Shown here: in pieces, positions 5,733-43,549 of the stretch | Layout: each line of letters begins with the position of its first letter | Position numbering within the stretch: the stretch's first letter is position 1 | Assembly: GCA_902762955.1 (NCBI GenBank) | Contig: CACWQH010000010.1 | Coordinates: forward strand, 1 to 60,711 | Origin: an uncultured Lachnospiraceae bacterium | GTDB lineage: Bacteria > Bacillota > Clostridia > Lachnospirales > Lachnospiraceae | Reading direction: 5' to 3' | DNA: 60,711 nucleotides | The notes under the pieces: generated by a model | What the model was told of the DNA's origin: nothing | What the model saw: only the letters and a program-made list of their open reading frames with translations | Databases searched by the model: none | Made by a program: the position numbers and the translations under genes

Positions 5733-6549
5733 CTTCCAACTTCTCCTTCCAGTCTAAATATTCGTCTAAGATATCATCAAATTGGTTATACCTAAAAACC
5801 TTTTTCATTCTATCTATATGCCACTGCTTTACATTTTCCGTATGCGGATACGGAAGATAAAAAAGTCTCTTTGAAAAATGTCTTACCACAGTTGATTTAT
5901 GCAAAAACTTCTGGTCATTAAATTTCTGTGGAAGCATCCTCTTTCTCGTGGTACTTCTGATTATGGCACTTTGGTCCGCAAAGGTAAGCTTCTTAATCTT
6001 TATAAGCTCTCTTGCCTTATCAAATAATCCTGTTTCCCTGCATTTTTTCATGTTAAACAAAAGCACGCCCGCATTGATATAATTGGGATATATGAGGTAT
6101 TTTCCATAGTGATCCCTGGCTGCCGCATACTCATAATCCGAAACATCATGATTATAAAGAAGTGCGATATCCCTGTTAAACATGATATCTGCATCAAGGT
6201 AAAGAATTTTATCCGGTATATCGGGAAGCATATCCATAAAAAGCCTTATAAGCGTATAAGGTGAACAATAGCACTGCTCATTTGGACTGCCCGCAAATTC
6301 CCTGTTATAAATATCCGTCACATCTATGCATTTTATCTCATTATCGGAATTGTATTTTTTAGCCGCTTGGCTAAGTATATCTATCTGACGTTTTGTGATT
6401 GGAGTGTATTCCTCCTTGATAAAGGAAACATCCATTGTGAGTATATAAAAATTAAATGGTTCTTTGACCTTGGTACGCTTTAAAACAGACAGCATACTTG
6501 TCATAACTCCGTCAAAGACCTTATAATTACCGGCATATAGTATATTCAT
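5719..6549 (-). CDS. GT8-family glycosyltransferase
   Basis: This 276-residue single-domain GT8 enzyme starts with MNILYAGNYKVFDGVMTSML. It carries the DxD motif in ILYLDADIMF (near residue 115), the NAGVLLFNMKKCR stretch and a C-terminal HFSKRLFYLPYPH segment typical of the family. GT8 enzymes use UDP- or other nucleotide sugars with retention of configuration. An AAGGG site precedes the ATG. It is second in the cluster, after a PlsC-like gene, and its end overlaps the GT8-PlsC fusion gene by 14 bp, which indicates coupled translation. The acceptor is not deducible. Confidence 0.85.
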   Translation of the reverse strand: MNILYAGNYKVFDGVMTSMLSVLKRTKVKEPFNFYILTMDVSFIKEEYTPITKRQIDILSQAAKKYNSDNEIKCIDVTDIYNREFAGSPNEQCYCSPYTLIRLFMDMLPDIPDKILYLDADIMFNRDIALLYNHDVSDYEYAAARDHYGKYLIYPNYINAGVLLFNMKKCRETGLFDKARELIKIKKLTFADQSAIIRSTTRKRMLPQKFNDQKFLHKSTVVRHFSKRLFYLPYPHTENVKQWHIDRMKKVFRYNQFDDILDEYLDWKEKLEDEQP

Positions 6550-27888: not shown

Positions 27889-27912
27889 ATTAGTTTTCCT
27901 TTCCTACTTACG

Positions 27913-28050
27913 GTTGTGTATGAATTTATGTATATATCGCAGGCACGCTCTCGCTACTCTCACACGCAGCGGTACTAAGCTCGGTTATACCTCGCTAAGT
28001 ACCGGCGTGTTCAAAGTACCTGCTTATATATACATAAATTCATACACAAC
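27913..28050 (+). repeat. fixed-core/variable-stem hairpin element, type 1, copy 1
   Basis: The outer arms, 27913-27937 and 28026-28050, are perfectly complementary over 25 bp. The core at 27939-28023 contains GGCACGCTCTCGCTAC, GCGGTACTAAGCTCG, ACCTCGCTAAGTACCG and AAAGTACC. An inner stem ACACGC/GCGTGT joins the fixed parts. The core is almost identical to the copy at 30309, while the outer arms are unrelated to it. It lies between the rimO stop and the pgsA start. Confidence 0.85.
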
Positions 28051-28068
28051 CTGTTTATTATTAAAAAT

Positions 28069-29442
28069 TTAATTTAAAATACATCCAATTAAATCATAAG
28101 GTCCGGCCTCATTTATTATTACATCAACTATGGAACCTGAAATAAGCTCGTAATCGCATTCCACGAAGACCAGGCCGTCGACACCTGGTGCATCCTTGTA
28201 GGTTCTTCCTACATATACGTCTTCCTCAGGTGAGTATCCCTCGATAATAACCTTAACGGTTTTACCAATCATTGTTTCATTTTTATCAAGTGAAATCTCC
28301 TGGCAAAGCACCATGATTTCATCCCGCCATCTTTCTGCGGTTTCTTCCTCGATTTGATTATCAAATCCGGCAGCAGGCGTTCCTTCCTCTCTGGAATATG
28401 TAAATACTCCGACTCTGTCAAGCTCTACTTCATCCAGGAATTCACAAAGTCCTGTATGGTCTTCCTCGGTTTCTCCCGGAAATCCGGCTATAAGCGAGGT
28501 TCTTATAGCAATATCGGGAACAGTGCTTCTTAATTTTCCTATTACTTCTATAATGGATTTTCTATCTGTTTTTCTGCCCATTCTTCTAAGTATATTATCT
28601 TCAGAATGCTGTATCGGCATATCTATGTAATGAAGCAGCTTTGGTTCTTTTACAAAAGCATCAATCAACTCATCATAAACTTCTTCAGGATAACAATACA
28701 TTACTCTTATCCACTCAATCCCGTCAATAAGAGCAAGCTTATGTATAAGCTCATGGAGACATTTCTTTCCGTAGATGTCCTTACCGTAGCAGGTGGTTTC
28801 CTGTGCTACAAGAACCAGCTCCTTTATACCGTTTTCAGCCATATATGAAGCCTCATCAATAAGCTTTTCCATCGGCACACTTCTGTATCTGCCACGCATA
28901 AGTGGAATTGCACAGTAGGTGCAACGCTTGTCACAGCCCTCAGCAATCTTGAGATAACCCATAAATGTGCCTGAAGTTATAGCCTTGTGATAATCAGAAG
29001 TTGTAAGTCTGTCGATGCTGTCATAAGCAACCACCTTATTGTTTTTAATAAGCATTACGGTTGAATCTTCCTTTACATCTTCCTTACCGTTAACTTCTTC
29101 AAGCTTATTTATAACCTCGACTATTCGGTCAAAGCTTGTTGTTCCGACACAGGCATCTATCTCGGGAATTTCATCAAATATTTCATTTTTATATCTTTCT
29201 GCCAGGCAGCCTGCCACGATGATATATTTAAGTCTTCCTTCCTTAAGCTTTGCCATTTCTAGAATAGTATTTATACTTTCCTCCATGGCATCCTTTATAA
29301 AGGAACAGGTATTTATTATAACCGCATCCGCTTCATTTTCATCATTTGTAAGGTTATAATTATATGCACTTAAAATGCCCATCATGGTTTCACTGTCACA
29401 CAGATTTTTATCACATCCAAGTGATACCATAAGTATATTCAT
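28069..29442 (-). CDS. rimO: ribosomal protein S12 methylthiotransferase
   Basis: This 457-residue radical-SAM methylthiotransferase modifies an aspartate of ribosomal protein S12. The N-terminal MTTase domain starts MNILMVSLGCDKNLCDSETM, with the three cluster cysteines in GCDKN, NTCSF and AGCLAE. The radical SAM motif is EGCDKRCTYCAIP. A TRAM domain closes the protein (TVKVIIEGYSPEEDVYVGRT). The GCDKNLCDSE start marks RimO rather than MiaB. Its ATG is one base after the folD stop. A hairpin element follows before pgsA. Confidence 0.95.
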   Translation of the reverse strand: MNILMVSLGCDKNLCDSETMMGILSAYNYNLTNDENEADAVIINTCSFIKDAMEESINTILEMAKLKEGRLKYIIVAGCLAERYKNEIFDEIPEIDACVGTTSFDRIVEVINKLEEVNGKEDVKEDSTVMLIKNNKVVAYDSIDRLTTSDYHKAITSGTFMGYLKIAEGCDKRCTYCAIPLMRGRYRSVPMEKLIDEASYMAENGIKELVLVAQETTCYGKDIYGKKCLHELIHKLALIDGIEWIRVMYCYPEEVYDELIDAFVKEPKLLHYIDMPIQHSEDNILRRMGRKTDRKSIIEVIGKLRSTVPDIAIRTSLIAGFPGETEEDHTGLCEFLDEVELDRVGVFTYSREEGTPAAGFDNQIEEETAERWRDEIMVLCQEISLDKNETMIGKTVKVIIEGYSPEEDVYVGRTYKDAPGVDGLVFVECDYELISGSIVDVIINEAGPYDLIGCILN

Positions 29443-29443
29443 A

Positions 29444-30286
29444 TTATATATTCATTCCTGCTTCTACACAATTATTCATAAGCATAGCTATAGTCATAGG
29501 TCCTACTCCACCCGGTACAGGTGTGATCGCGCTGCAGATTGGCTCAACTGATTCAAAATCAACATCACCACAGAGCTTGCCGTTTTCATTTCTATGTATA
29601 CCTACATCTATAACTACAGCACCCTCTTTTACATAAGATGCATCTATCATTTTAGGCTTACCAACAGCAGCTATAAGTATATCTGCACGCTTGCAAACCT
29701 CTTTAAGATTTTTGGTTCTAGAATGGCAAACTGTAACAGTACCATTTTCCCTAAGAAGGAGCATTGCCATAGGTTTTCCGACTATATTGCTTCTGCCTAC
29801 AACCACACATTCCTTACCCTCGATATCAATATTTGAACGTTTAAGAAGCTGAATTATTCCGGCAGGAGTACATGACAAAAAGCCCTTTTGTCCGATACTT
29901 AATGCTCCGACACTTGCAGGAGAAAATCCATCAACATCCTTAAGTGGTGATATGGCATTTATAATTTTCTCATCATTTATTTGCTTTGGAACCGGAAGCT
30001 GTACAAGGATACCGTTTACACTGTCATCCTTATTAAGCTTATCAATTATCTGCAAAAGCTCTTCTTCTGTTGTCTCTTCAGGGAGCTCATAAGCAAGTGA
30101 TTTTATACCAATGTACTCGCAGGCCTTTTTCTTATTACCGACATAAACCGTTGATGCCGGATCATTACCGACCTGAATAACTGCAAGACAAATCTCCCTT
30201 CCCGCCGCTTTTAGCCCGGCAACCTTTTCCTTTAACTCATCCTTAATCTGCTTGGAAATAAGCTTTCCGTCAATTATCTGTGCCAT
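29444..30286 (-). CDS. folD: methylenetetrahydrofolate dehydrogenase/cyclohydrolase
   Basis: This bifunctional enzyme of about 280 residues interconverts 5,10-methylene-, methenyl- and 10-formyl-THF. The substrate motif has the catalytic lysine in VYVGNKKKACEYIG. The NADP site is VVGRSNIVGKPMA. The end has ITPVPGGVGPMTIAML. The ATG at 30286 is chosen for the AGGAGG site five bases upstream; a GTG at 30313 would lie inside a hairpin element. It lies downstream of fhs (formyl-THF synthesis), the next step in the same one-carbon pathway, with a hairpin element between them. Confidence 0.95.
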   Translation of the reverse strand: MAQIIDGKLISKQIKDELKEKVAGLKAAGREICLAVIQVGNDPASTVYVGNKKKACEYIGIKSLAYELPEETTEEELLQIIDKLNKDDSVNGILVQLPVPKQINDEKIINAISPLKDVDGFSPASVGALSIGQKGFLSCTPAGIIQLLKRSNIDIEGKECVVVGRSNIVGKPMAMLLLRENGTVTVCHSRTKNLKEVCKRADILIAAVGKPKMIDASYVKEGAVVIDVGIHRNENGKLCGDVDFESVEPICSAITPVPGGVGPMTIAMLMNNCVEAGMNI

Positions 30287-30308
30287 GTTTTCCTCCTTCT
30301 TTACACAC

Positions 30309-30450
30309 GCCACTTTATTGTTTTTAACAAATCTATAGCAGGCACGCTCTCGCTACTCTCGGACGCAGCGGTACTAAGCTCGGTAAACCTCACTAAGTAC
30401 CGGCGTCCTCAAAGTACCTGCTTATAGATTGTTAAAAACAATAAAGTGGC
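30309..30450 (+). repeat. fixed-core/variable-stem hairpin element, type 1, copy 2
   Basis: The outer arms 30309-30330 and 30429-30450 are perfectly complementary over 22 bp. They continue as TCTATA/TATAGA after a one-base bulge. The core at 30338-30421 matches copy 1 (27913) with few changes. Two of these changes fall on opposite arms of the inner stem and keep pairing (GGACGC/GCGTCC here, ACACGC/GCGTGT there). It sits between the fhs stop and the folD ribosome binding site. Confidence 0.85.
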
Positions 30451-30467
30451 TTCTATTATAACCAACT

Positions 30468-32135
30468 TTAAAACAGCCCGTTAATTACTCCGTCCTCGTC
30501 AACATATATGCGTTCTGCAGCAGGAACCTTTGGAAGTCCCGGCATGGTCATAATGGTGCCTGTTATAGCTACAATGAATCCTGCACCGGCACTCACATAT
30601 ACTTCTCTGATGTTTATATCAAAGTCTGTTGGACGTCCGAGTTTTGTTGCATCATCTGAAAGCGAATATTGGTTCTTTGCCATACAAACCGGCATATTGG
30701 AAAAGCCCATTGCCTCAATCTTTGCAATAGCCTTATCTGCCTCACTGCTGTATGTAACTGCCCTTGCGCCATATATCTTTTTAGCTACTGTTTCTATCTT
30801 TTCTTTTATCGATAAATCATCTTCATAAAGGAGCTTGAAATTGCTCTTTTTGGTGTCAATTGTATCTACAACAGCCTGAGCCAGTGAAAGACCGCCTTCT
30901 CCACCCTTTTCCCATACATTTGCAAGCGCAAAGTCACAATCTCTTTCCTTACAAAAGCTTTCAACAAAGGAAAGCTCGGCATCTGTATCGGATACAAATC
31001 TGTTAAGTGTTACAACTACAGGTACTCCGTAATTTTGAAGATTTTCTATATGCTTTTCAAGGTTAACAATACCCTTTTTAAGGGCATCAAGATTTTCTTT
31101 ATTTAATTCATCCTTTGGTACGCCGCCGTTATATTTTAAAGCTCTTACTGTTGCTACAAGAACAACTGCATCCGGCTTAAGTCCTGTCATACGACACTTT
31201 ATATCAAAGAATTTTTCAGCTCCAAGATCTGCACCAAAGCCTGCCTCTGTAATTACATAATCTGCCATCTTTAAAGCAGTTCTTGTTGCTCTTACGGAAT
31301 TACATCCGTGTGCAATATTGGCAAATGGACCGCCATGCACAAGAGCCGGTGTATGCTCAAGCGTCTGTATAAGGTTTGGCTTTATAGCATCCTTAAGAAG
31401 TGCTGTCATAGCTCCGACAGCCTTCAAATCATCAGCTGTTACAGGCTCATTATCATAGTTATATGCAACGATGATTCTTGCAAGTCTGTCATGTAAATCC
31501 TTTATATCCGATGCAAGACAAAGAATAGCCATAACCTCTGAAGCAACAGTTATGATAAATCCATCCTGTCTTACAACTCCGTCCATTTTAGCGCCCATAC
31601 CGATTACGATATTTCTTAATGCTCTGTCATTCATATCGAGACATCTTTTTATAACAACTCTCTTTGGATCGATACGCAGAGCATTTCCCTGCTGCATATG
31701 ATTATCGAGCATAGCACAAAGAAGATTATTGGCAGAGGTTATAGCATGAAAATCTCCTGTAAAATGAAGATTAAGCTCCTCCATAGGTACAACCTGAGAA
31801 TATCCTCCTCCTGCTGCGCCTCCCTTTATACCAAAACAAGGTCCAAGAGATGGTTCCCTTAATGCTATAATTGATTTCTTGCCAAGCTTTGCCATAGCCT
31901 GCCCCAGACCAACCGTAACAGTTGTTTTTCCTTCGCCAGCAGGTGTAGGATTGATAGCTGTTACCAATATAAGCTTTCCATCCTTATTATCCTTTATTTT
32001 TTCTAAATATTCATCACTAAGCTTTGCCTTATACTTACCGTACATCTCAAGGTCATCCTCGGATATATCAAGCTTTGCGGCAACATCCTTGATATTTTCA
32101 AGCTTTGCAGCCTGAACGATTTCAATATCAGTCAT
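30468..32135 (-). CDS. fhs: formate-tetrahydrofolate ligase
   Basis: This 555-residue enzyme makes 10-formyl-THF from formate, THF and ATP. The ATP loop is [19 protein letters not shown], and [33 protein letters not shown] and a C-terminal [19 protein letters not shown] are diagnostic. Length is normal. The ribosome binding site is AGGAGAG. It begins a folate/one-carbon run (fhs, folD) that continues into rimO, pgsA and a DHH protein. Abundant in acetogenic and purine-degrading Clostridia, it also supplies formyl groups for purines and initiator tRNA. Confidence 0.96.
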
Positions 32136-32243
32136 ATTTCTCTCCTATTTTTCCCTTTTTATATTATTATAATTATTTTTATAATTAATCATCTTCCATC
32201 ATTCAACGAAAGACCATTATTAAATACATTATCACATGTTATA

Positions 32244-34913
32244 TTACAGATTGTTCTCTACATAGTTTTCGAATTCTTCCATAACCATAAGAACCTTTCT
32301 CGGCTTTGTACCTTCTTCAGGACCTACAACACCCGCTTCCTCGAGCTGATCCATAATTCTTGCTGCCCTGTTAAAGCCAATCTTATAAACTCTTTGAAGC
32401 ATTCCTATGGAAGCCTTTTCTTTACCTATGATAAATTTACCTGCATCAACAAAATATTCATCCACATCATTTGATGCCGAAGCCCCTGCAGAACCACCGC
32501 CTGCCTTAGAGCTGTCAATCTCGGCGGAAACCTTATCGTCATAAACGACCTCTCCGCTTTGATCCTTTAAATATCCTGTAACATTGGCAATTTCCTCATC
32601 GGACAGATATGCACCCTGAACTCTGACAGGTTTAGGATATCCTGTTGGATAATAAAGCATATCACCCTTACCTAAGAGTTTCTCGGCTCCATTCATATCT
32701 ATAATGGTTCTTGAATCCGTACCGGATGATACCGTCATCGCTATACGTGATGGAACATTTGCCTTGATAAGTCCGGTGATAACATCTACCGAAGGACGCT
32801 GTGTAGCAATTACAAGGTGAATACCTGCCGCTCTTGCAAGCTGTGTAAGACGGACAATAGCATCCTCAACCTCTCCATGTGCTACCATCATGAGGTCTGC
32901 AAGCTCATCTACGATAACAACTATCTGAGGCAGCTTCTTTAATTCCTCTACGCCTTCCTCAGTTCCTGTTACATTTTTAACCTTTTCATTATATCCCTCA
33001 AGATTACGTACATTATACTGGGCAAAAAGCTGATATCTGTTGGTCATCTCCATAACTGCCCAATTAAGAGCTCCTGCCGCCTTTTTAGGATCTGTGACAA
33101 CAGGTATAAGCAGATGAGGAATGCCATTGTAGACACCAAGTTCAACCTGCTTTGGATCTACCATAATAAGCTTTACCTCATCCGGCTTTGCTTTATATAA
33201 AATACTCATTATAAGCGAATTAATAAGAACGGATTTACCCGAACCTGTTGCACCGGCTACAAGCAAATGTGGCATCTTGGCAATATCAGCAACTATAACC
33301 TTACCGCTTATATCCTTACCTACCGCAAAAGCGATTTTGGATTTCATTTTAGCAAATTCATCTGATTCAAGCAATTCCCTAAAGGTTACCGAAGTGCTTT
33401 CTTTATTTGGAACCTCGATACCGATAGCCGCCTTGCCCGGTATAGGAGCCTCAATTCTTATATCTGCAGCAGCAAGGTTAAGCTTGATATCGTCAGCAAG
33501 ATTAACTATCCTGCTTACCTTTACACCCTGTTCAGGCTGAAGCTCATACCTTGTAACAGAAGGACCACAGCTGTAATCGGTAACTGTTACATTTACTCCG
33601 AAATTCTCCAGTGTACTCTTTAACTTTTGAGCTGTTTCCCTTATGGCTGCCTCGTTGTTCTTACCACCGCCTTTTCCAGCCTTAAGTAATGTAAGAGGCG
33701 GATATTTGTATTCTGCGCCGCCTATAACCTGATCACCATTTGGAATACTAATTTTTTCATTGTCCGTTTTTTCCGAAACATCTTTTGCTGAAACATCTTT
33801 TGCTGAAAACTCTTTTGCTGAAAACTCTTTTGCTGAAAACTCTTTTGCTGAAAACTCTTTTGCTGAAAACTCTTTTGCTGAAAGCTCTTTTGCTATTGCA
33901 TTTCTTTCTTCAAGCATCTCACGATTGGATTCCTTTGTTTTCTTTCTTCTTCGTTTTACAGGCTCAAGCTCTGTAACTGCTTCTTCAGAAATCTGATTTT
34001 CCTGTTCCTGAGGCACATATGTAGCCTCATTTGCCATCGGAATATCAAAGAAATCTCTGGATTTATTAAATTCATTACTATCAAGTTCAAGTCTGTCACT
34101 TGGTCTTAACTCATGTATTTCTTCATCCTTAACAATACGGTTTTTCTTCTTTTTTCTTGCCTTTCTATCCTCTTCAGACTCCAGAACCTTAATTTTACTT
34201 AACACATTTTGGTCATCATTAAGATTATTATTTCTTATGTCTGAAAGCTCTTCAAAGTCAAATTCATCATCAAAGTCATCGTCATCAATGTTTGGCTTAT
34301 ACTTAAGTGTTTCTATAATAGACACATCCAAAACCACAATAATTCCAATTATAATAAGTAATGCTGTTACTATAATCGAACCTGTTAGTCCAATAAGCTT
34401 ATACAGCAAAATAAGTATTCCGCCAAGGATAACTCCTCCACCCTTTTTATCATCTGCTCCTGCATGATAAAGAGTCTTCACTGATGCAGTATCGAGCTCA
34501 TTTAACATCTGGCATATAAATGCAATAGCTACAAGGAATATAGATATACAAACCACTCTTTTAACAAGCTTCTTTTGAGCGCCGTTAGATAAAAGAAATG
34601 CTGCGGTAAAGAATATGTAAATCGGTAATATGTAAGATATTGTTCCAAATAATCCAAATAAAATATTTGAAAAGAACCTTCCTATCGGACCGCACCATCC
34701 AAAATTGCTGAGAAGTAAAAATACAGTTACTGCGAGATATACAAAAAGATATATCTCATTACGTCTTGGATCGTATTCTTTTTTATTTTTTACATTTCTT
34801 GAATTACCTCTGCTGTTACTGTTATTTCTGCTATTTGTTCTGTTTCTATTACTATTATTTACGGTATTTCTGCGGTTTTGACTACTGCTTCCGTTTCTTC
34901 CCGTAGTTGCCAT
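32244..34913 (-). CDS. ftsK: FtsK/SpoIIIE DNA translocase
   Basis: This protein of about 889 residues begins with an Asn/Arg/Ser-rich cytoplasmic tail (1-45). Four to five membrane segments (about 53-205) and a charged linker with a pentapeptide repeat (around residues 345-380) follow. The motor domain has Walker A GATGSGKSVLIN near residue 555 and Walker B IVVIVDELADLMM. The C-terminus is the winged-helix gamma domain (GMLQRVYKIGFNRAARIMDQ). It pumps DNA at the division or sporulation septum. The ATG at 34913 is preferred because AAGGAG lies nine bases upstream; 34946 lacks a site. It follows tepA, as in Bacillus. Confidence 0.95.
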   Translation of the reverse strand: MATTGRNGSSSQNRRNTVNNSNRNRTNSRNNSNSRGNSRNVKNKKEYDPRRNEIYLFVYLAVTVFLLLSNFGWCGPIGRFFSNILFGLFGTISYILPIYIFFTAAFLLSNGAQKKLVKRVVCISIFLVAIAFICQMLNELDTASVKTLYHAGADDKKGGGVILGGILILLYKLIGLTGSIIVTALLIIIGIIVVLDVSIIETLKYKPNIDDDDFDDEFDFEELSDIRNNNLNDDQNVLSKIKVLESEEDRKARKKKKNRIVKDEEIHELRPSDRLELDSNEFNKSRDFFDIPMANEATYVPQEQENQISEEAVTELEPVKRRRKKTKESNREMLEERNAIAKELSAKEFSAKEFSAKEFSAKEFSAKEFSAKDVSAKDVSEKTDNEKISIPNGDQVIGGAEYKYPPLTLLKAGKGGGKNNEAAIRETAQKLKSTLENFGVNVTVTDYSCGPSVTRYELQPEQGVKVSRIVNLADDIKLNLAAADIRIEAPIPGKAAIGIEVPNKESTSVTFRELLESDEFAKMKSKIAFAVGKDISGKVIVADIAKMPHLLVAGATGSGKSVLINSLIMSILYKAKPDEVKLIMVDPKQVELGVYNGIPHLLIPVVTDPKKAAGALNWAVMEMTNRYQLFAQYNVRNLEGYNEKVKNVTGTEEGVEELKKLPQIVVIVDELADLMMVAHGEVEDAIVRLTQLARAAGIHLVIATQRPSVDVITGLIKANVPSRIAMTVSSGTDSRTIIDMNGAEKLLGKGDMLYYPTGYPKPVRVQGAYLSDEEIANVTGYLKDQSGEVVYDDKVSAEIDSSKAGGGSAGASASNDVDEYFVDAGKFIIGKEKASIGMLQRVYKIGFNRAARIMDQLEEAGVVGPEEGTKPRKVLMVMEEFENYVENNL
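33781..33894. repeat. 15-bp tandem repeat within ftsK
   Basis: TCTTTTGCTGAAAAC occurs as five identical copies (33796-33870), flanked by two near-identical copies and a partial one. On the coding strand it gives FSAKE-type pentapeptides in the FtsK linker. The lack of divergence suggests recent expansion and length variation between strains. Confidence 0.9.
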
Positions 34914-34961
34914 ATTATTACACTCCTTATCTATATGTAGCGCCATTTTTAAAATGGCAGC

Positions 34962-35702
34962 TTAATAGTTCTCATACTGATTCATTTTACTATTTTTCTT
35001 CTCATTAATCAAGTCATATAAACAATTAAGAGCACTATTTATTCCTCCTACGCGGTCTATTATACCCTTTTCTACAGCATCCGCTCCAACCAGCATAGTA
35101 CCGATATCCTTTGTCAGTTCGGTTGTGTTAAACATAAGTGCCTTAAAATCCTCTTCACTTATGGAGCTGTGATTTGAAGTAAAATCAATAATTCTGTCCT
35201 GCATTCGTTCAATATATTCAAAATTCTGCTTAACTCCAAGCACTGTATCATTAAATCTTATCGGATGAACCACCATCGTTGCAGTAGGAACAATATAAGT
35301 CACATCCCCTGAAACGGCAAGCGGTACCCCTATAGAATGTCCACCTCCCAACACCAGACAAACCTTCGGCTTGCTGAGTGAAGCTATCATCTCCGCTATA
35401 GCAAGTCCTGCCTCCACATCACCACCAACAGTATTTAAAAGCACCATAAGCCCGTCGATATTTTCATTATCTTCAACAGCGGCAAGCTGTGGAAGTATGT
35501 GTTCATATTTACTTGTCTTAGTATTGATACCCAGATTATCATGACCTTCAATTTCACCGATTATATTTAAAAGATGTATCTTTTGTCTGTACTTATTGTT
35601 AGCAAGTGTTATCTGACCGTAATCCTCTATAAGCTGTGACCTCTTTTCACTAATATTTGATCCGTTTGATTTTTCAACATCATTTCCTTTATCCTGATAC
35701 AT
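34962..35702 (-). CDS. tepA: ClpP-like serine protease (translocation-enhancing protein TepA)
   Basis: This protein of about 246 residues has a ClpP/crotonase-type fold. The strand VLLNTVGGDVEAGLAIAEMI gives the oxyanion GG. The catalytic serine is in GGGHSIGVPLAVSGD and the histidine in MVVHPIRF. It matches the TepA (YmfB) family linked to protein translocation in Bacillus, where it also neighbours spoIIIE. The ATG at 35702 has GGAGG seven bases upstream; an in-frame extension to 35840 encodes an atypical leader without such a site. The ftsK gene follows 48 bp downstream, so they are probably one operon. Confidence 0.88.
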   Translation of the reverse strand: MYQDKGNDVEKSNGSNISEKRSQLIEDYGQITLANNKYRQKIHLLNIIGEIEGHDNLGINTKTSKYEHILPQLAAVEDNENIDGLMVLLNTVGGDVEAGLAIAEMIASLSKPKVCLVLGGGHSIGVPLAVSGDVTYIVPTATMVVHPIRFNDTVLGVKQNFEYIERMQDRIIDFTSNHSSISEEDFKALMFNTTELTKDIGTMLVGADAVEKGIIDRVGGINSALNCLYDLINEKKNSKMNQYENY

Positions 35703-35935
35703 AAAAAATCCTCCATAATAAAATATAAATATATTATGCAGGATTTTTATATTTTTATTCATTATAAACAATTGAAAAAAGACTTTAGCAAGAACTCCCC
35801 ATAAATTCATACTAAAGTCTTTAATCTTTAAATTGAACACCCCTAATGTTTCAAATTTATAATGAAATTATACAGCAGTTTTAACAAAATATCCAGTATT
35901 TTTATTGCAATTTGCATAAAATTGTCATTTTATAC

Positions 35936-35977
35936 AAAAAAACATGTCACCGGAAAGCAAATCCGGTGACATGTTTT
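35936..35977 (-). terminator. terminator of the pnp-GH94 operon
   Basis: A perfect 14-bp stem (AACATGTCACCGGA at 35941-35954 with 35962-35975) is followed on the minus strand by seven T. It lies 10 bp past the stop of the GH94 gene. Confidence 0.9.
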
Positions 35978-35986
35978 GTATAATAA

Positions 35987-38386
35987 TTACATATTTATTA
36001 TAATATCGTTATTGTCAGAAAGAGACTCAAAAGGAATATAATTTGATTCCATATTCTTTCCGTTTAATAATACTTCCTTGTATCCGCTTTCACATCCGTT
36101 TGGATTGTTTACAGTGATATGAAGCTTTTTGCCTCTGTAATCCTTATCCATCTCAAAGCTCTTCCACTCTGAAGGAATAGATGGCGCAAGCTTAATACCG
36201 TAGAAATCAGGTCTAAGACCAAGTATACCTTCTACACATCCTACCATAACTGTAGATGCTGTACCGGTAAGCCAATGTACATGTGAACGTCCTGCAAACG
36301 GACTGTCATTACTTTCTGTAAACTGTCCGTGGCAGTACGGCTCAAGCTTTCTTATCTCTGCCTTATCATTCATAGCAGCAGGTGAACTTTCTGTAAAGTA
36401 TTCAAAAGCTCTGTTACCATGTCCCATAAGGGATTCTGCAAGAATTATCCAACCCTGAGTCTGGGAGAATATACCACTGTTTTCTTTAGTACCAGGATTA
36501 AACAAAAGCATAAGTGCTCCTTCAAACGCATGGTCAACATATGGAGGATCCATAAGCTTAACACCATAAGGTGTATTTAATTTACTATGTACAGATTCAA
36601 GTGACTTTTCAGCCTGTTCCTTTGAAGCGAGACCACTTATAACGCCCCATGACTGAGGGTTAAGCCACATAGAAGCTTCCTTGTCATTTCTTGATCCGAT
36701 AACCTGTCCGTCTTCTGTAAAGCCACGAACATATCTGTCCTCATCCCAGCACTTATCCTGAAGAATTGTACCAAGTGCAGTCTGTATGTCGTCGAGATAC
36801 TTGATATAATCTGTATCCTTCTTAATTTCAGCAAAGCCCTTAAGCACTGTCATTGCATAATAAAGCTGCATTGCAACAAAGGTTGACTCACCCTTCTTAC
36901 CGAGTCTTAAGCAGTCATTCCAGTCTGCATGAAGACCTGCCGGCATATTGTGATTGCCAAGTCTGTTCATAGAGAAATCTATAGCTCTCTTAAGATGCTC
37001 ATAAACAGTTCCTTCACCACCGTTGGCAAATACTATAACCTCGTCTATAAAGTCAACATTTCCTGTTTCAGCAATGTACTTATAAATTGTAGGGAAGAGC
37101 CACAATGCATCATCCGCTCTGTATGCCGGATGTCCTGTTGCTCTGACATAGGACTCATCATCAGGTGTATCCTCATGTCCTGCATTGTGGTCAAACTTTA
37201 CAAGTGGAAGTCCACCGCCGTTATCAACCTGAGCGGAAAGCATAAATCTTATCTTTTCAAGTGCCATTTCAGGAGCAAGATGAATTACCCCCTGTATATC
37301 CTGAACAGTATCTCTGTAGCCATATCCGTTTCTTAAGCCACAGTAAGAAAAGGAGGCTGCTCTTGACCAGATAAAAGTCATAAAGCACTGATATGCATTC
37401 CATGTATTTATCATAGCATTGAAGGCTTCACTCGGAGTCTTAACCTGAAGATGATTAAGCTTGCTGTGCCAATAATCCTTTAACTTATCAATCTCATCAG
37501 CCGACTTTTTAGCCACTTCCTTATAAGAAGCCATAATCTCATCAGCCTCATCATCACTTTTCATACCAAGTATAAATGCAAACTCCTTTGACTCTCCCGG
37601 CTTTAATGTAAGCTTTGTTTCCAAAGCACCACAGGCATTTAAGTTATAATTAAGCTTATTACCGCAGTTACCGTTTTCAATAGCTACCGGATTGGCATAA
37701 GAATGATATCTTCCCAAAAACTCCTCCTTATCACCACAGTAGCTTTCTACCTCTGCTCCTACAAGTCCAAAAACTCTGTTGACAACCTTACTGTCATTAA
37801 CGGCATTTTTCGTAACATTTTCATTGATAACCTGTTTAATTCTGTTATTTGAAAAATAAGTCTTTGTAATAAATAATGTATACTGAAGGTTTACCTGATC
37901 CTGCTCGTAGTTATTGTCGTTCGTAAACTCACAATAACCAAATACAGAAAGATCTCTTTCTTCATTTGAATTATTGGTAACCTTAACCTTCCAAACCTCA
38001 TGAGTTTTATCAAGAGGAACATAATATAGAGCCTCTGAATCTATACCACTGTAAGAAGCCTTTATGTTGGTATAACCGGTTCCATGGCGGCACTCACTCT
38101 TATATACATCAAGTGGCTTTCCTACCGGCTGCCAGGATGCCGACCAATAATCCTTACTTTTATTATCTCTTATATAAATGTATCTTCCCGGCTGATCAAA
38201 ATTATTAAATACATATCTTATAATTCTGCCGTTTGCACCGGATTTTACAAAGCTGTAACCACCCGCATTGTTGGATATTATAGCACCGTATTCCGGTGAA
38301 CCAAGATAATTGGCCCAAGGTGCCGGAGTGTCAGGTCTGTCTATAACATATTCCTTGTTCGCTTCGTCAAAATATCCAAATCTCAT
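35987..38386 (-). CDS. GH94 family sugar phosphorylase (cellobiose/chitobiose phosphorylase-like)
   Basis: This 799-residue inverting phosphorylase of family GH94 has an N-terminal beta-sandwich (MRFGYFDEANKEYVIDRPDT), a helical linker and an (alpha/alpha)6 barrel. The catalytic aspartate is in LHADWNDCLRLG near residue 490. HWLTGTAS and GIKLAPSIPSEWKSF are the phosphate-side and C-terminal motifs. It splits a beta-linked disaccharide with phosphate to sugar-1-phosphate plus a free sugar in the cytoplasm. By memory of the family the sequence sits among cellobiose and diacetylchitobiose phosphorylases, but the exact disaccharide cannot be set. No signal peptide is present. It starts 15 bp after pnp, with GGGAGG, so the two are co-transcribed. 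Confidence 0.88.
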   Translation of the reverse strand: MRFGYFDEANKEYVIDRPDTPAPWANYLGSPEYGAIISNNAGGYSFVKSGANGRIIRYVFNNFDQPGRYIYIRDNKSKDYWSASWQPVGKPLDVYKSECRHGTGYTNIKASYSGIDSEALYYVPLDKTHEVWKVKVTNNSNEERDLSVFGYCEFTNDNNYEQDQVNLQYTLFITKTYFSNNRIKQVINENVTKNAVNDSKVVNRVFGLVGAEVESYCGDKEEFLGRYHSYANPVAIENGNCGNKLNYNLNACGALETKLTLKPGESKEFAFILGMKSDDEADEIMASYKEVAKKSADEIDKLKDYWHSKLNHLQVKTPSEAFNAMINTWNAYQCFMTFIWSRAASFSYCGLRNGYGYRDTVQDIQGVIHLAPEMALEKIRFMLSAQVDNGGGLPLVKFDHNAGHEDTPDDESYVRATGHPAYRADDALWLFPTIYKYIAETGNVDFIDEVIVFANGGEGTVYEHLKRAIDFSMNRLGNHNMPAGLHADWNDCLRLGKKGESTFVAMQLYYAMTVLKGFAEIKKDTDYIKYLDDIQTALGTILQDKCWDEDRYVRGFTEDGQVIGSRNDKEASMWLNPQSWGVISGLASKEQAEKSLESVHSKLNTPYGVKLMDPPYVDHAFEGALMLLFNPGTKENSGIFSQTQGWIILAESLMGHGNRAFEYFTESSPAAMNDKAEIRKLEPYCHGQFTESNDSPFAGRSHVHWLTGTASTVMVGCVEGILGLRPDFYGIKLAPSIPSEWKSFEMDKDYRGKKLHITVNNPNGCESGYKEVLLNGKNMESNYIPFESLSDNNDIIINM

Positions 38387-38401
38387 TAAACTTCCTCCCG
38401 C

Positions 38402-40486
38402 TTATTCAGCATCCTTAAGGCTAAGACTAATCTTACCCATTCTATCGATGTCAAGGACCTTAACTCTTACCTCATCACCGATATTTACAACATCCTCAAC
38501 CTTTTCAACTCTCTTGTCAGAAAGCTTTGAAATGTGGATAAGACCATCCTTGTTAGGTGAAAGCTCAACAAATGCACCGAAGTTCATTATTCTTACAACC
38601 TTACCCTCATATGTCTTTCCAACCTCAATAGGATCAACAATCGAACGGATAATCTTAACTGCCTTATCAATTCCTGCCTGATCAACACCACATACAGAAA
38701 CTCTTCCGTCATCATCTATATCAATCTTGACACCTGTTTCTTCAATGATTGCATTGATAGTCTTACCACGCTGACCGATAATCTCGCCAATCTTCTCAGG
38801 ATCAACTGTAAGCTGTACAATCTTTGGAGCAAGAGCACTAACTGTCTCACGAGGAGCTGATATAGCAGGCTTCATACAAGTATCCATAATGAACAATCTT
38901 GCCTCACGACATCTTGCGATTGCACCCTCAACGATAGGTCTTGTAAGACCATGAATCTTGATATCCATCTGAATAGCTGTGATACCCTCGGTAGTACCTG
39001 TTACCTTAAAGTCCATGTCTCCAAAGAAATCCTCAAGTCCCTGGATATCAGTTAAAAGGATATAATCATCATCAGTTTCACCGGTTACAAGACCACAGGA
39101 AATACCTGCAACCATCTTCTTAATAGGTACACCGGCTGCCATAAGAGCCATACATGATGAACAGGTTGAACCCATAGAGGTTGAACCGTTTGATTCAAAG
39201 GTCTCTGATACGGAACGGATTGCATATGGGAACTCCTCCTCACTTGGAAGTACAGGAAGAAGTGCTCTTTCTGCAAGTGCACCATGTCCGATTTCACGAC
39301 GTCCCGGTCCTCTTGATGGTTTAGTCTCACCAACAGAGTATGAAGGGAAATTATAATGATGCATATATCTTTTAGATACAACATTTTCATCAAGCCCATC
39401 TAACTTCTGTGCCTCAGATAAGGGAGCAAGAGTTACAACATTACAAATCTGGGTCTGTCCTCTTGTAAACATAGCTGAACCATGAACTCTAGGAATTATA
39501 TCAACTTCAGCTGCAAGAGGTCTTATCTGGGTAATCTCTCTTCCGTCAGGTCTCTTGTGATCCTTAAGAATCATCTTACGAACTGTCTTCTTCTGATACT
39601 GGTAAACAGCCTCATCCAAAACCGCAAGCCACTCCTCATTTTCAGCAAAAGCTTCAGTAAGCTTGTCCTTAATCTGTCTGATATTTTCTTCTCTAACCTG
39701 CTTTTCATCAGTAAATACTGCTTCTTCCATCTGGGCAGGTGGAACAATCTCTTTAATAGCTGCAAACAATTCTTCAGGAACTGCACAGCTTGTATATTCA
39801 TGCTTAGCCTTACCGCACTCAGCAACTATCTGGTCTATAAATGCGATAACCTTCTGGTTTAACTCATGAGCAGCATAAATAGCTTCAATCATCTTTGCTT
39901 CAGGTATCTCATTAGCACCTGCTTCAATCATGATAACCTTATCTCTTGTTGATGCAACTGTAAGCTTAAGATCTGACTCAAGGTTCTGAGCAGAATTCGG
40001 ATTAAATATAAACTCACCATTTATCATACCAACCTGTGTAGTTGCACATGGACCGTCAAACGGAATATCTGATATGGCTACTGCTATAGCTGAACCAAGC
40101 ATAGCTGTAAGCTCAGGTGAACACTCAGGATCAACTGACATAACCATGTTATTGAGTGTAACATCATTTCTGTAATCCTTTGGGAAAAGAGGTCTCATAG
40201 GACGGTCAATAACTCTTGAAGTAAGGATAGCATTTTCACTTGCCTTACCTTCTCTTTTATTAAATCCACCCGGGATTTTTCCTACTGCATAAAGCTTCTC
40301 CTCATACTCAACTGAAAGTGGGAAGAAATCGATTCCTTCTCTTGGCTTTTCAGATGCTGTTGCAGTTGATAAAACAACAGTATCGCCATAGTGCATAAGC
40401 GCAGCACCATTAGCCTGCTTAGCAACACGTCCGACATCAACGCGAAGTGTTCTGCCTGCAAGTTCCATTTCAAACTTCTTAAACAT
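38402..40486 (-). CDS. pnp: polyribonucleotide nucleotidyltransferase (PNPase)
   Basis: This 694-residue 3'-5' phosphorolytic exoribonuclease has two RNase PH domains flanking a helical domain. GQTQICNVVTLAP and FPYAIRSVSETFESNGSTSM belong to the second, with the active site near TDIQGLEDFFGDMDFKV. A KH domain (IGEIIGQRGKTINAIIEETG) and an S1 domain (GKVVRIMNFGAFVELSPNKD) follow. It acts in mRNA decay, usually in the degradosome. The start has AAGGAG ten bases upstream. A long hairpin in the leader suggests autoregulation. GH94 is co-transcribed downstream. Confidence 0.97.
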   Translation of the reverse strand: MFKKFEMELAGRTLRVDVGRVAKQANGAALMHYGDTVVLSTATASEKPREGIDFFPLSVEYEEKLYAVGKIPGGFNKREGKASENAILTSRVIDRPMRPLFPKDYRNDVTLNNMVMSVDPECSPELTAMLGSAIAVAISDIPFDGPCATTQVGMINGEFIFNPNSAQNLESDLKLTVASTRDKVIMIEAGANEIPEAKMIEAIYAAHELNQKVIAFIDQIVAECGKAKHEYTSCAVPEELFAAIKEIVPPAQMEEAVFTDEKQVREENIRQIKDKLTEAFAENEEWLAVLDEAVYQYQKKTVRKMILKDHKRPDGREITQIRPLAAEVDIIPRVHGSAMFTRGQTQICNVVTLAPLSEAQKLDGLDENVVSKRYMHHYNFPSYSVGETKPSRGPGRREIGHGALAERALLPVLPSEEEFPYAIRSVSETFESNGSTSMGSTCSSCMALMAAGVPIKKMVAGISCGLVTGETDDDYILLTDIQGLEDFFGDMDFKVTGTTEGITAIQMDIKIHGLTRPIVEGAIARCREARLFIMDTCMKPAISAPRETVSALAPKIVQLTVDPEKIGEIIGQRGKTINAIIEETGVKIDIDDDGRVSVCGVDQAGIDKAVKIIRSIVDPIEVGKTYEGKVVRIMNFGAFVELSPNKDGLIHISKLSDKRVEKVEDVVNIGDEVRVKVLDIDRMGKISLSLKDAE

Positions 40487-40517
40487 TTGTACTTTTCTCC
40501 TTGAAAATATATTTTGA

Positions 40518-40600
40518 ATTAAGACTCCGAAACAACTGAAAATGTCACTTTAAATAAATACCTAAAATACCATTTTCAGAAGTCTCGGTTTTGTCTTAAT
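40518..40600 (-). promoter_or_regulatory. long hairpin in the pnp leader
   Basis: ATTAAGAC (40518-40525) pairs with 40593-40600, and CTGAAAATG (40536-40544) pairs with 40571-40579. CCGA/TCGG between them gives further partial pairing. The hairpin ends 32 bp before the pnp ATG. In enterobacteria a leader hairpin of pnp is cut by RNase III and used for autoregulation; the same use here is inference. Confidence 0.55.
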
Positions 40601-40730
40601 ACAATCTAAAATATTATATCATTCTTATGTGAAATCTTCAAGAGTGGATTTTAATCGAATATGCTTTTAAAATATAAAAAACAGATATGATTTATTCTAT
40701 CTTAAATTATAAAGACTAAAGGAAAACAAA

Positions 40731-41303
40731 ATGAGTAATTCAAATTATTTCAATCAGGCATTACACGATATGGTATTTGAAACCGCCTGTGGTGCTGCCA
40801 TAAAAAGGCTTGCCGATAAAAGCTTTCCTGTATCATATATAATAAAAGAGCTTGACTATCCTGTCTCGTTTGAGCGGGTTCAAAGATACGTATGGCAGTA
40901 CTATCTGGACAACAAAACACTCATATATCTTGATAATGAAACAAACTATCGAGAAGAAAACGGTATAATCATAATAAAAGAGTCAAATATAAAAAAGACC
41001 TATGTTAAAGAACAGGGACCTTACGGAAAGACAACCTTTAGACAGGTTACTTCTTCCGAAGCTGATAATACAGACAGTAATCAAAAAAGTATAAATGGTA
41101 GGAAATACGTCTCCTGTGATTTTGGAATATTAAAAAGAAATAATTCCAAAGAGTTTGAAAACTTACTTAACAGACTTGATGCTTATGATAAAGCTTATAT
41201 TATGGATTTGCCTTGGGAGAATAAAATTGTTTATCATATATTAAACGACAGGATGTTGTCCGTAAAAAGAGTAAATATATCAAATTTAAAAAATATTATG
41301 TAA
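40731..41303 (+). CDS. conserved-looking hypothetical protein
   Basis: This 190-residue soluble protein has an AAAGGA ribosome binding site and a strong terminator after the stop. It is divergent from pnp and convergent with the pilin gene. The N-terminal half (ALHDMVFETACGAAIKRLAD, then VSYIIKELDYPVSFERVQRY) is helical and could be a winged-helix-like DNA-binding domain. The middle is low complexity (SSEADNTDSNQKS). The end (DFGILKRNNSKEFENLLNRL) is again structured. No family is recognised and no function is assigned. Confidence 0.65.
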   Translation: MSNSNYFNQALHDMVFETACGAAIKRLADKSFPVSYIIKELDYPVSFERVQRYVWQYYLDNKTLIYLDNETNYREENGIIIIKESNIKKTYVKEQGPYGKTTFRQVTSSEADNTDSNQKSINGRKYVSCDFGILKRNNSKEFENLLNRLDAYDKAYIMDLPWENKIVYHILNDRMLSVKRVNISNLKNIM

Positions 41304-41334
41304 TTAAACTATTATCAATATACTATAAAAAAGA

Positions 41335-41364
41335 AAAGCTGCGATTTAATCGCAGCTTTTTCTT
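41335..41364. terminator. bidirectional terminator
   Basis: A 12-bp perfect stem (AAAGCTGCGATT/AATCGCAGCTTT) has a minimal loop. T-runs follow on both strands (TTTTTCTTT and TTTTCTTTTTT). It serves the plus-strand hypothetical gene and the pilin gene. Confidence 0.92.
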
Positions 41365-41372
41365 TAAAACAA

Positions 41373-41825
41373 CTATTTAATTGTATATGTTGCAGCCGGA
41401 ACTGTTGGAACCACTGTATCCCAAGATTTACCATCATAATAGATTGTCTTACCACCTTCTGTATATGCTACATAAGTAATTGTATATGCAGCATGCTTAG
41501 TCTTATCTGCAGAAGCACATCCAACAATAAGTGCAGTGCAGTTAGGTACATCTGCTGTTGTAAGTACATCATTAGCATAAGCTCCACTTGCTTTAGATTT
41601 ATCAATTTGATCAGGATCAGCACTCTTTGCATAGAGTGATGACATCTCAGCCTGTGCAGCTGTTAGTGCGCTCTTTGCATTAAGAACTATCTGCTGCTGT
41701 TTAGCCTTATCAATGTAACCAAGCAAAGCCGGAACAAGAATTGCTGCCAAGATAGCAAGAATAACAATAACTACAATTAATTCAACAAGAGTAAAACCCT
41801 TATTATCCTTTCTTATTTTTTTCAT
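41373..41825 (-). CDS. type IV prepilin, probable major pilin
   Basis: This 150-residue prepilin has a short basic leader cut after G10. The mature part begins FTLVELIVVIVILAILAAIL, with the conserved E5, and a long N-terminal helix continues (IDKAKQQQIVLNAKSALTAA). The globular part has two cysteines (NCTALIVGC). The compact size, the last position in the pilus operon and a separate strong promoter (41873-41901) suggest that it is the main subunit. The ribosome binding site is AGGAGG. Retraction by the PilT encoded upstream would give twitching or adhesion. Confidence 0.92.
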   Translation of the reverse strand: MKKIRKDNKGFTLVELIVVIVILAILAAILVPALLGYIDKAKQQQIVLNAKSALTAAQAEMSSLYAKSADPDQIDKSKASGAYANDVLTTADVPNCTALIVGCASADKTKHAAYTITYVAYTEGGKTIYYDGKSWDTVVPTVPAATYTIK

Positions 41826-41872
41826 AGTACATCCTCCTCATATTATTTTTTTCGTTCTATTTGGATAATATA

Positions 41873-41901
41873 ATTATACCAAAAAATACAGCTCACTTCA
41901 A
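41873..41901 (-). promoter_or_regulatory. extended -10 promoter of the major pilin gene
   Basis: On the minus strand: TTGAAG, a 17-nt spacer and TATAAT. TG is placed one base before the -10. Transcription would begin near 41866, about 40 bp before the ATG. It allows pilin expression above the level of the rest of the operon. Confidence 0.75.
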
Positions 41902-41995
41902 GTTTTCTATAACATTTATCGGTATTTTTTATAATTTAAATAATACTTTCATACATATATTTTTTTTAAACCTTTAACTTTATATGTTTTATTTA

Positions 41996-43255
41996 TTATT
42001 CTTCATTAAAATCTTTTAATATAATAAAATTCTCATGATTAGATTTTGTAGGCAATTTATAATTATTTTGATTGGATTTTGCCATATATACTATATTTTC
42101 TTCTTCCGAGTAATATAACTTTCCTGCCATATTATTTACGAAAATAACTCTGGCATCCTCTCCCCAATTAGGATATGGCGAAAAATCTTCTTTTGTCAAA
42201 ACATGCTCATAGTCAATTCTATATACAAGTTCCCATCCCATATCACAAATTACATCAGCACCATTATGTGCCAACGTATAATAATCTAAATTACGATCCT
42301 GAACCACATAATACACACTATCATTATATGTAAAAACATCACCCGCTTTTAATGGAATAGTATCATGATCAGACTTTACACCATTATCAATATCAGCTTT
42401 TGCTATATCCTTTTGCGGCCAATACATACTATCTTCAATGGTTATTCCGGTATTAATATCTGAATCCTTATAAATAAGCACCAGATCTCCGGAAGGTTTA
42501 TTTATATTTTCACGATTATCATCTGTCGGATCTGTGTCGTCAGCAGGATCTGTGCTGTCAGCAGGGTCTGTATTGTCTGTCGGGTCTGTGTTATCTGTTG
42601 GATCTGTATTATCCGATGGATCCGTATTGTCAGCAGGATCTGTATTATCTGATGGATTTGTGCTATCTGCAGGATCTGTGTTATCTGAAGGATTTGTATT
42701 GTCAGCAGGTTCAGATGAATCCTTTTTTGTCTTATCAACATTAGGTATATCTAAATCATTATTAACTATTCCAGATGAACTTCCACCGTCACCATTCTTA
42801 ATTCCGGCCTTCTCTTCAAAATTATCCTCATCACTATACATCCATTTTGCTTCTTCCATCTTCCATACGGCAGTTATACCATTTTCGGTATATCTGAATT
42901 CATGTATAGTATATAAATCCTTACCTTTTGAACCATATTCAACATATGTTATGGCACCAATCTTGTTTGAACCTGTAAGTTCAAGACTTGTCGCTTTTCC
43001 AACATCCTGATTTAATGCATCCAAAGAGCTGTATATAGGCTGTCCATATATATACTTTTCACTTGATAAGCTCTGAGAAACCATAAGGCAATCCTTAGCA
43101 TTTACCATAACCTGCTCTCTTTTTTGCTTATCCATATAGCCCATAAAAGCAGGCACAACAATAGCCGCCATAATGGCAATTATAACTATAACAACCACAA
43201 GCTCAACAAGAGTAAAACCACTATTCTTCTTATCATGCTTCTTTAAGTTATTCAT
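41996..43255 (-). CDS. prepilin with Asp/Thr/Pro repeat linker
   Basis: This protein of about 419 residues has a prepilin leader cut after G13, then FTLVELVVVIVIIAIMAAIV and a pilin-like globular part to about residue 170. A linker of about 65 residues follows, made of repeated D-N-T-D-P-type pentapeptides. A separate C-terminal domain (LVLIYKDSDINTGITIEDSM onward) is unlike pilins and may be displayed on the fibre. The ATG at 43255 has AGGAGG upstream; an extension to 43285 has none. It lies between pilT and the major pilin; a large hairpin element separates it from pilT. It is probably a minor or adhesive pilin; which ligand it binds is unknown. Confidence 0.88.
   Translation of the reverse strand: MNNLKKHDKKNSGFTLVELVVVIVIIAIMAAIVVPAFMGYMDKQKREQVMVNAKDCLMVSQSLSSEKYIYGQPIYSSLDALNQDVGKATSLELTGSNKIGAITYVEYGSKGKDLYTIHEFRYTENGITAVWKMEEAKWMYSDEDNFEEKAGIKNGDGGSSSGIVNNDLDIPNVDKTKKDSSEPADNTNPSDNTDPADSTNPSDNTDPADNTDPSDNTDPTDNTDPTDNTDPADSTDPADDTDPTDDNRENINKPSGDLVLIYKDSDINTGITIEDSMYWPQKDIAKADIDNGVKSDHDTIPLKAGDVFTYNDSVYYVVQDRNLDYYTLAHNGADVICDMGWELVYRIDYEHVLTKEDFSPYPNWGEDARVIFVNNMAGKLYYSEEENIVYMAKSNQNNYKLPTKSNHENFIILKDFNEE
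42530..42720. repeat. 15-bp-type repeats encoding the D-N-T-D-P linker
   Basis: GGATCTGTATTATCTG-like units repeat about 12 times with many silent and A/S/T/P-changing differences. They encode the acidic linker of the prepilin. Confidence 0.8.
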
Positions 43256-43410
43256 AATGTGCCTCCTTTCTGAAATACTAATCACATCTCATTATATATA
43301 TCGACATTCCAAACAATAAAACTCAATCATCATTACACTTTTCTTTAAAAATATATTTACAAAAATATATATCTAAACATAACTACCTAACATCTTTTCC
43401 AATAGAGTGA

Positions 43411-43549
43411 GTTGTCTGTACATAAGCTGCCTATAAAAAGGTACTTTAAAAACGTCGGTACTTAGCGAGGTATTTTCGAGCTTAGTACCGCTACGTTTTT
43501 AACGTAGCGAGAGCGTGCCTTTTTATAGGCAGTCTTATGTACAGACAAC
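43411..43549 (-). repeat. fixed-core/variable-stem hairpin element, type 1, copy 3 (inverted)
   Basis: Read on the minus strand, the fixed parts GGCACGCTCTCGCTAC, GCGGTACTAAGCTCG, ACCTCGCTAAGTACCG and AAAGTACC are all present. The inner stem is TTAAAAACGT/ACGTTTTTAA (43493-43502 with 43446-43455), unrelated to the stems of copies 1 and 2. The outer arms are about 31 bp with one bulge. The element lies 8 bp after the pilT stop, before the repeat-linker prepilin. Confidence 0.85.

Follow-up and report, generated by a model that had tools for sequence, protein, structure and literature searches.

The 60,711-nt stretch analyzed here (the window), from an uncultured Lachnospiraceae bacterium (GenBank assembly GCA_902762955.1, contig CACWQH010000010.1), carries three intergenic copies of a hairpin element in which a conserved core of ∼88 nt is closed by a long outer stem. 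All three copies reported in a preliminary description of this DNA were recovered in place. We use "sense" for the strand on which the core reads AAGCAGG...CCTGCG, and we list the parts of each copy together with its match to a covariance model built from 15 copies in the same genome:

27912 to 27937, minus strand: copy 1, 3′ arm (sense) of the outer stem, 26 nt, pairs with 28026 to 28051
27938 to 28025, minus strand: copy 1, conserved core (AAGCAGG...CCTGCG; three-way junction, GNRA hairpin, and apical hairpin)
27932 to 28031, minus strand: copy 1, model match (E 1.5e-26)
28026 to 28051, minus strand: copy 1, 5′ arm (sense) of the outer stem, complement of 27912 to 27937
30309 to 30336, minus strand: copy 2, 3′ arm (sense), exceeding the 5′ arm by one base
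30337 to 30423, minus strand: copy 2, conserved core
30331 to 30429, minus strand: copy 2, model match (E 5.3e-25)
30424 to 30450, minus strand: copy 2, 5′ arm (sense)
43411 to 43437, plus strand: copy 3, 5′ arm (sense), the copy being inverted relative to the adjoining genes
43438 to 43523, plus strand: copy 3, conserved core, with A-T pairs extending the inner stem
43429 to 43530, plus strand: copy 3, model match (E 5.8e-22)
43524 to 43549, plus strand: copy 3, 3′ arm (sense)

Two of the segments described as common to the copies were searched with up to 3 mismatches allowed; each gave 3 exact matches against 0.1 to 0.4 expected, and one additionally gave three 3-mismatch matches elsewhere. 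Based on Pfam, the neighbors are housekeeping or pilus-type genes. Copy 1 adjoins genes for a CDP-alcohol phosphatidyltransferase and a radical-SAM/UPF0004/TRAM protein, copy 2 those for a tetrahydrofolate dehydrogenase/cyclohydrolase and a formate-tetrahydrofolate ligase, and copy 3 those for a T2SSE-family ATPase and an N-methyl pilin-like protein (41996 to 43285, minus strand) with a long Asp/Pro/Asn/Thr-rich repeat run. The gene names used below (pgsA, rimO, folD, fhs, pilT, and leuB-like) are our own labels. The preliminary description had set the copies between co-directional genes, two of them just before a ribosome binding site; copies 1 and 2 do lie directly ahead of a start codon with the core reading along the genes, and copy 3 is inverted. 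Elsewhere, positions 22680 to 25763 (plus strand) encode a 1,027-residue protein whose translation, by eye, looks like a TIR-like domain with a repeat region after it.

Searching the genome and its relatives with the covariance model, as had been proposed, revealed a family larger than first reported. Counting model matches at E of ≤0.01, we found 25 copies in the genome of the window and copies in 37 of 37 genomes of its genus, with 1 to 56 per genome (56 in G043). In a sample of the order, under stricter filters, 12 of 196 genomes matched at E 1e-4; these fall in 7 of 101 genera, and all 12 belong to the family of the window, which record titles give as Lachnospiraceae. When up to 2 mismatches were allowed, a 15-base pattern occurred at 23 genome places, chance ones among them. 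The exact pattern of the apical hairpin was present in at least 118 stretches of named genomes, and among the 80 matches listed, titles were mostly of Lachnospiraceae, including Butyrivibrio, Hungatella, and Clostridium symbiosum, with a few metagenome-assembled genomes (MAGs) labeled Bacteroides or Bacteroidales. These 80 stretches gave 92 covariance-model matches, and 3 of them (two Hungatella, one MAG) carry the apical motif alone. No match to the element was found in plasmids, the apical pattern had 0 exact matches in viral contigs, and 3 of 50,697 phage records gave partial, unannotated matches (36 to 42% of the query, E 2e-4 to 6e-3). Rfam gave 0 matches in the window above the gathering score (best E 7.6, over copies 1 and 2), and the element was not found in Rfam or in the open-access subset of the full-text literature, outside which most subscription papers lie. 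We interpret the element as an interspersed structured repeat of Lachnospiraceae that is undescribed and apparently non-coding.

The core forms a three-way junction with a GNRA-loop hairpin and an apical CTTAGCGAGG...CGAGCTTAG hairpin, and a stem of ∼26 bp closes it. On the sense strand, the 5′ arm is followed by AA, GCAGG, the stem UACUUU/AGAGUA, and a variable inner stem; at the top, GGUACU-U-AGC closes the apical GAGGUNUUUUCGA loop, and the descending strand leads through a two-base-pair GNRA-loop hairpin at the junction to CCUGC, G, and the 3′ arm. The three window copies fold largely according to this plan, with RNA folding z scores of −11.9, −12.5, and −13.1 against dinucleotide shuffles. 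The small loop is GNRA (GAGA, GAAA, GCAA, GGGA, GGAA, or GCGA) in 139 of the 144 copies scored, the tetraloops of another 5 of 149 being unplaceable by the script; closing pairs are GC/GC or GU/AC, with AC/GU in three of the five unplaced. Over 93 distinct rows, the covariation score of the core was 0.437 versus 0.149 when shuffled, and 0 of 500 shuffles reached it.

The apical loop of several copies bears an additional long hairpin. In three locus-matched pairs with almost identical arms (G000_L015/G019_L097, G000_L002/G019_L103, and G000_L010/G019_L105), one species has this hairpin and the other lacks it, and several of the extra hairpins have a TTTACGAAGTAA loop. Short hairpins standing in tandem in two Hungatella genomes and a MAG (L205, ∼575 to 675; L233, ∼6210 to 6335; L268, ∼1236 to 1279) have only the CTTAGCGAGG...CGAGCTTAG apical motif in common, and their stems differ; the L205 array adjoins what we read as a tRNA gene.

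Outer arms were analyzed in 95 copies from the genus (97 matches in 80 loci, minus 2 duplicates of a place, L058 and L096), which include 20 of the 25 matches from the genome of the window and form 65 loci, that is, ortholog groups by flanking sequence within the fetched sequence. For other genera, 54 of the 92 matches were hand-picked, leaving out locus-end matches, genomes already in the genus set, low scorers, and some without a stated reason. The 5′ arm measures 24 to 27 nt in 68 of the 95 genus copies (median, 26). The complementarity claimed for the window copies extends to 94 of the 95, whose pairing exceeds the 95th percentile of swapped arms (21 pair perfectly), in a control that may draw on orthologs or arm families and hence has a high maximum (31.5). 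Across the 65 loci, each of arm positions 3 to 24 shows 3 to 4 Watson-Crick pair types, and 88 to 100% of cells there are Watson-Crick; mutual information is 1.0 to 1.7 bits versus ∼0.1 when shuffled. The preliminary description had staked its case on stem changes that covary beyond chance, and they do so both across the 65 loci and in the core alignment. A one-base bulge 8 to 10 nt from the core is common in the 3′ arm (40 such bulges in the 95 copies). Arm divergence is as extreme as first described, with a likeness of 0.67 versus 0.58 shuffled among the 20 copies of the window's genome and 0.65 versus 0.59 among 26 copies of G019, but "wholly unrelated" goes too far, as many arms share, by eye, an outer GG(T/C)TTG and an inner ..TCTAT or ..CAT. 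Copies from other genera follow the same plan (median arm length over 53 of the 54 copies, 24 nt), and several arm families are, by eye, common to copies there. Judged from these alignments, we conclude that the outer stem of 24 to 27 bp is constrained almost solely to pair.

Beyond this stem, a second, outer stem scored higher than the 99th percentile of swapped flanks in 15 of the 95 genus copies, where 1 was expected; in 14 of these 15, the loop on each side measures 11 to 21 nt. In other genera, 12 of 51 copies exceed an arbitrary score of 12.5, 8 with loops of 13 to 20 nt; the control 99th percentile is 17, so that most are not significant singly.

We compared sites with and without the element by eye, except in the five-site arm-matching test described below. 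The element is present in 2 of 29 genomes compared at pgsA-rimO and in 2 of 27 at folD-fhs. The arms are joined without a core in G023 at folD-fhs and in G024 at C24 site 1, core remnants remain with one arm in G000 and G024 at L097:2785 and in G024 at L102:3619, arm scraps remain in G019 and G015 at pilT, and sites elsewhere are clean. G024 at folD-fhs holds a single arm-like stretch; the other single-arm states are, on our reading, deletion remnants, because they retain core ends. No consistent direct repeat indicative of target-site duplication was seen beside the arms at the sites compared. Loss of whole elements by deletion is evidently frequent. Where G000 and G019 hold copies at the same site, both arms are 0.88 to 1.00 alike in 9 of 14 pairs. 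The pair G013_L158/G019_L110 has identical arms and cores only 0.83 alike, and the G013_L158 core is 0.98 like another copy of its own genome; identical arms around a swapped core point to core exchange among copies, of which this is at least one clear case.

Two of these sites hold other repeats. In the folD-fhs gap, L089, L090, and L091 (G050, G041, and G006) contain a different, larger nested palindrome, and L091 lacks its inner half, as if one hairpin had gained or lost another within its loop. Ahead of the leuB-like gene, L145 and L146 (G000 and G023) contain tandem repeats of ∼70 to 80 nt (AAGATTTGTTACCTGTTTAGG and following) where relatives hold the hairpin element or nothing.

The arms also distinguish the two strands. 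Scored on a strand-neutral alignment, imperfect arm pairs in the genus comprised 57 G.U versus 14 A.C, with 50 other mismatches (86 distinct copies; p 2.7e-7), and 43 versus 11 when one copy per locus was counted (p 1.4e-5). Where sense runs along the genes, the counts were ∼28 G.U versus ∼5.5 A.C (38 loci); at 4 convergent loci the bias leaned the other way (∼1 versus ∼2.4). The two window copies folded on both strands were ∼8 to 10 kcal/mol more stable on the sense strand (copy 1, −80.9 versus −70.5 kcal/mol; copy 3, −80.2 versus −72.5 kcal/mol). The C-A mismatch that the preliminary description had noted as conserved (GGCAC/GTACC) is there, but it is a G.U pair on the other, more stably folding strand. 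An excess of G.U over A.C on the strand that carries the GNRA loop argues that a folded single strand is selected, most likely RNA. In DNA, G.T is also a milder mismatch than A.C, which leaves room for a single-stranded DNA, and both strands of the two copies tried do fold as DNA.

Gene context, with directions taken from longest open frames rather than a gene caller, agrees in part with a role in transcripts. Among the 95 genus copies, 81 lie between co-directional genes (57 sense, 24 antisense), 6 between convergent and 7 between divergent genes, and 1 was left unassigned. By locus, 40 run sense along the genes and 17 against (p 0.003), and the 3′ arm of sense genus copies ends a median of 24 nt ahead of the next open frame.

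Based on these observations, we propose, with a probability of roughly one half, that the element is an undescribed Lachnospiraceae repeat selected as a folded single strand, most likely the RNA of the sense strand, whose stem acts as a processing or stability element. The "conserved structure" offered earlier as one of two possibilities is strongly supported by the covariation across 65 loci, the G.U/A.C asymmetry of the arms, and the GNRA-restricted loops. A polycistronic transcript would carry the element, and its double-stranded stem of ∼26 bp would be the processing or stability signal. Enzymes of the RNase III type recognize about two helical turns and need little sequence, and such an enzyme could recognize a stem of this length and free sequence. 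The conserved core would then be what a protein, or a spreading machinery, recognizes.

Several observations weigh against this proposal. Outside three near-fixed non-Watson-Crick pairs the core has no G.U excess (27 to 20, p 0.38), which leaves the arms, the GNRA loop, and the fold energies to carry the strand argument, and one of the three near-fixed pairs is C.A in 16 of 93 rows. In other genera, the arm bias is weaker (38 G.U versus 19 A.C in 49 of the 54 copies; p 0.016) and the orientation bias is absent (17 sense and 19 antisense of 54). Some relatives with flanks 92 to 97% identical have unrelated arms at the same site, which slow drift alone would not predict; in L023/L111, for instance, the flanks are 95% identical and the arms 0.64 to 0.68 alike, possibly by independent insertion into the same gap or by arm turnover. 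Finally, where sense opposes the genes, the arm bias persists and is not reversed (∼10.5 G.U versus ∼2.5 A.C; 16 loci, p 0.02).

This last observation speaks most strongly against a role in host mRNA alone, which would predict reversal, and it favors an alternative in which selection on the fold benefits the element itself. The element would spread via a folded single-stranded form of the sense strand (RNA or one-strand DNA), using host machinery and no protein of its own, and pairing, wobble tolerance, and the GNRA loop would be kept whatever the direction of the host genes. We put this forward tentatively, as possible and rather unlikely.

Replication template switching, which would perfect imperfect palindromes with no selection on the fold, is an unlikely source of the pairing. 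The process is known in E. coli according to PMC7202029, where it turns imperfect palindromes into perfect ones, and near-perfect palindromes persist here after core loss (G024 at C24 site 1 and G023 at folD-fhs). Such correction, however, would not be expected to produce the one-strand excess of G.U over A.C (57 to 14), and it leaves the GNRA-restricted loops and the bulge kept 8 to 10 nt from the core unexplained.

Alternatively, the core alone could move, with the arms made at each new site by fold-back copying of the adjoining target DNA, much as the preliminary description had imagined a mobile element producing palindromic arms of its own as it inserts. The narrow arm length would fit, and two observations favor it weakly: in one pair of copies from the window's genome the cores are 0.99 alike and the arms only 0.68 to 0.72 (0.56 shuffled), which core exchange also explains, and G024 has the single arm-like stretch at folD-fhs. 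Against it, in the five-site test, the element-less intervals of relatives (7 of 7) matched neither arm above the 95th percentile of shuffled arms in either direction, on the assumption that these sites are ancestral, as an element-less site may be a complete deletion. Furthermore, arm families are common to copies in other genera, same-site arms diverge by paired changes, and the identical arms around swapped cores in G013_L158/G019_L110 indicate exchange of cores. Comparing loci with and without the element, as the preliminary description had advised, revealed deletion remnants, clean sites, and, at five sites, no match between the arms and the intervals of element-less relatives, and we consider self-made arms quite improbable. 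Based on these comparisons, we conclude instead that the arms are part of the element and drift through paired changes.

We give little credence to a single-stranded DNA hairpin recognized by a recombinase (integron-like or Xer-type) or by a Y1 (REP-type) transposase. The one-strand asymmetry would fit this too, 36 of the 37 genus genomes have a tyrosine recombinase of some kind, and a tyrosine recombinase of Hungatella effluvii (best family XerA/integron-type) adjoins related hairpins. However, Y1 transposases (PF01797) were detected in 8 of the 37 genomes and in none of G000, G019, G042, and G043, the last with 56 copies, by a search that covered the Y1 family as the only transposases and detects matches in 5 of 14 control genomes. 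The Hungatella-type recombinase, encoded beside the L233 hairpins, has a close homologue (61%) in 1 of the 37 genomes, the matches in 36 being distant, and this homologue sits between what we read as hsdS-like frames, without the hairpin motif. Both were rejected as partners. A reverse transcriptase (retron or group II intron; PF00078) was also tried and rejected: it was found in 14 of the 37 genomes, including G000, and in none of G043, G042, G048, and G019, by a search that detects matches in 3 of 14 control genomes.

Equally doubtful is a stand-alone multicopy small RNA gene with its own promoter on the sense strand. The arm G.U bias with and against the direction of neighboring genes would suit it, but no conserved upstream position was found, promoter-like sites occurred in 12 of 95 upstream stretches versus 7.6 ± 2.6 when shuffled, and genus sense copies end close ahead of the next open frame, as noted above. 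Ordinary intrinsic terminators, although these hairpins too are intergenic, are very improbable, given no consistent T-run after either arm (by eye), 0 terminator-like sites around copies 1 and 2 in a scan limited to loops of 3 to 8 bases, and only 6 of 95 copies between convergent genes.

Among known systems, the element resembles integron attC sites, which act as a folded strand with variable stems and conserved extrahelical base positions. Unlike them, it has a conserved core of this kind, with no cassette array and no tracking integrase found (one recombinase tried), and no attC core sites were seen by eye. The stems of REP elements are repeated in sequence, and the REP partner is a Y1 transposase; here the stems are not repeated, and a Y1 transposase was not found in 29 of the 37 genomes. 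In being short and dispersed, with long stem-loops, the element otherwise resembles REP/REPIN and ERIC-type repeats, whose transcripts form long stem-loops as described in part of PMC2229807. It also resembles bcr1 from the Bacillus cereus group, which measures 167 nt and has 31 copies in B. anthracis, and other stem-loop families treated in sections of PMC2267715, as a Firmicute interspersed repeat of similar size and conserved fold; that paper tabulates families of Clostridium perfringens and C. tetani, and its main text contains no words that start with lachnospir-, compensatory, or covaria-.

A close parallel in architecture is with the Correia repeat enclosed elements (NEMIS) of Neisseria, which likewise have many intergenic copies and long symmetric arms of ∼26 bp around a conserved core. 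Their transcript hairpin binds RNase III, and cleavage depends on arm symmetry, according to a portion of PMC2649163. Whereas Correia/NEMIS elements have one repeated 26-bp arm sequence with few variants, the arms here are nearly sequence-free and covarying: a conserved 26-bp terminal repeat is absent, with arms in the window's genome 0.67 alike versus 0.58 shuffled and 3 to 4 pair types at positions 3 to 24. No sequence relation in core or host was seen. By analogy, we infer that the element may work like the Correia/NEMIS hairpins, in mRNA processing, with sequence-free stems.

An element that keeps its shape and leaves its stems free amounts to a natural covariation experiment, repeated many times over in each genome within a family of bacteria common in the gut. 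Should it prove to process or stabilize mRNA, many housekeeping operons would be under one RNA signal. If instead the fold serves the spread of the element, we would be dealing with a mobile nucleic acid that encodes no protein and is marked by its structure rather than its sequence, a kind of element that sequence-based repeat finders tend to miss.

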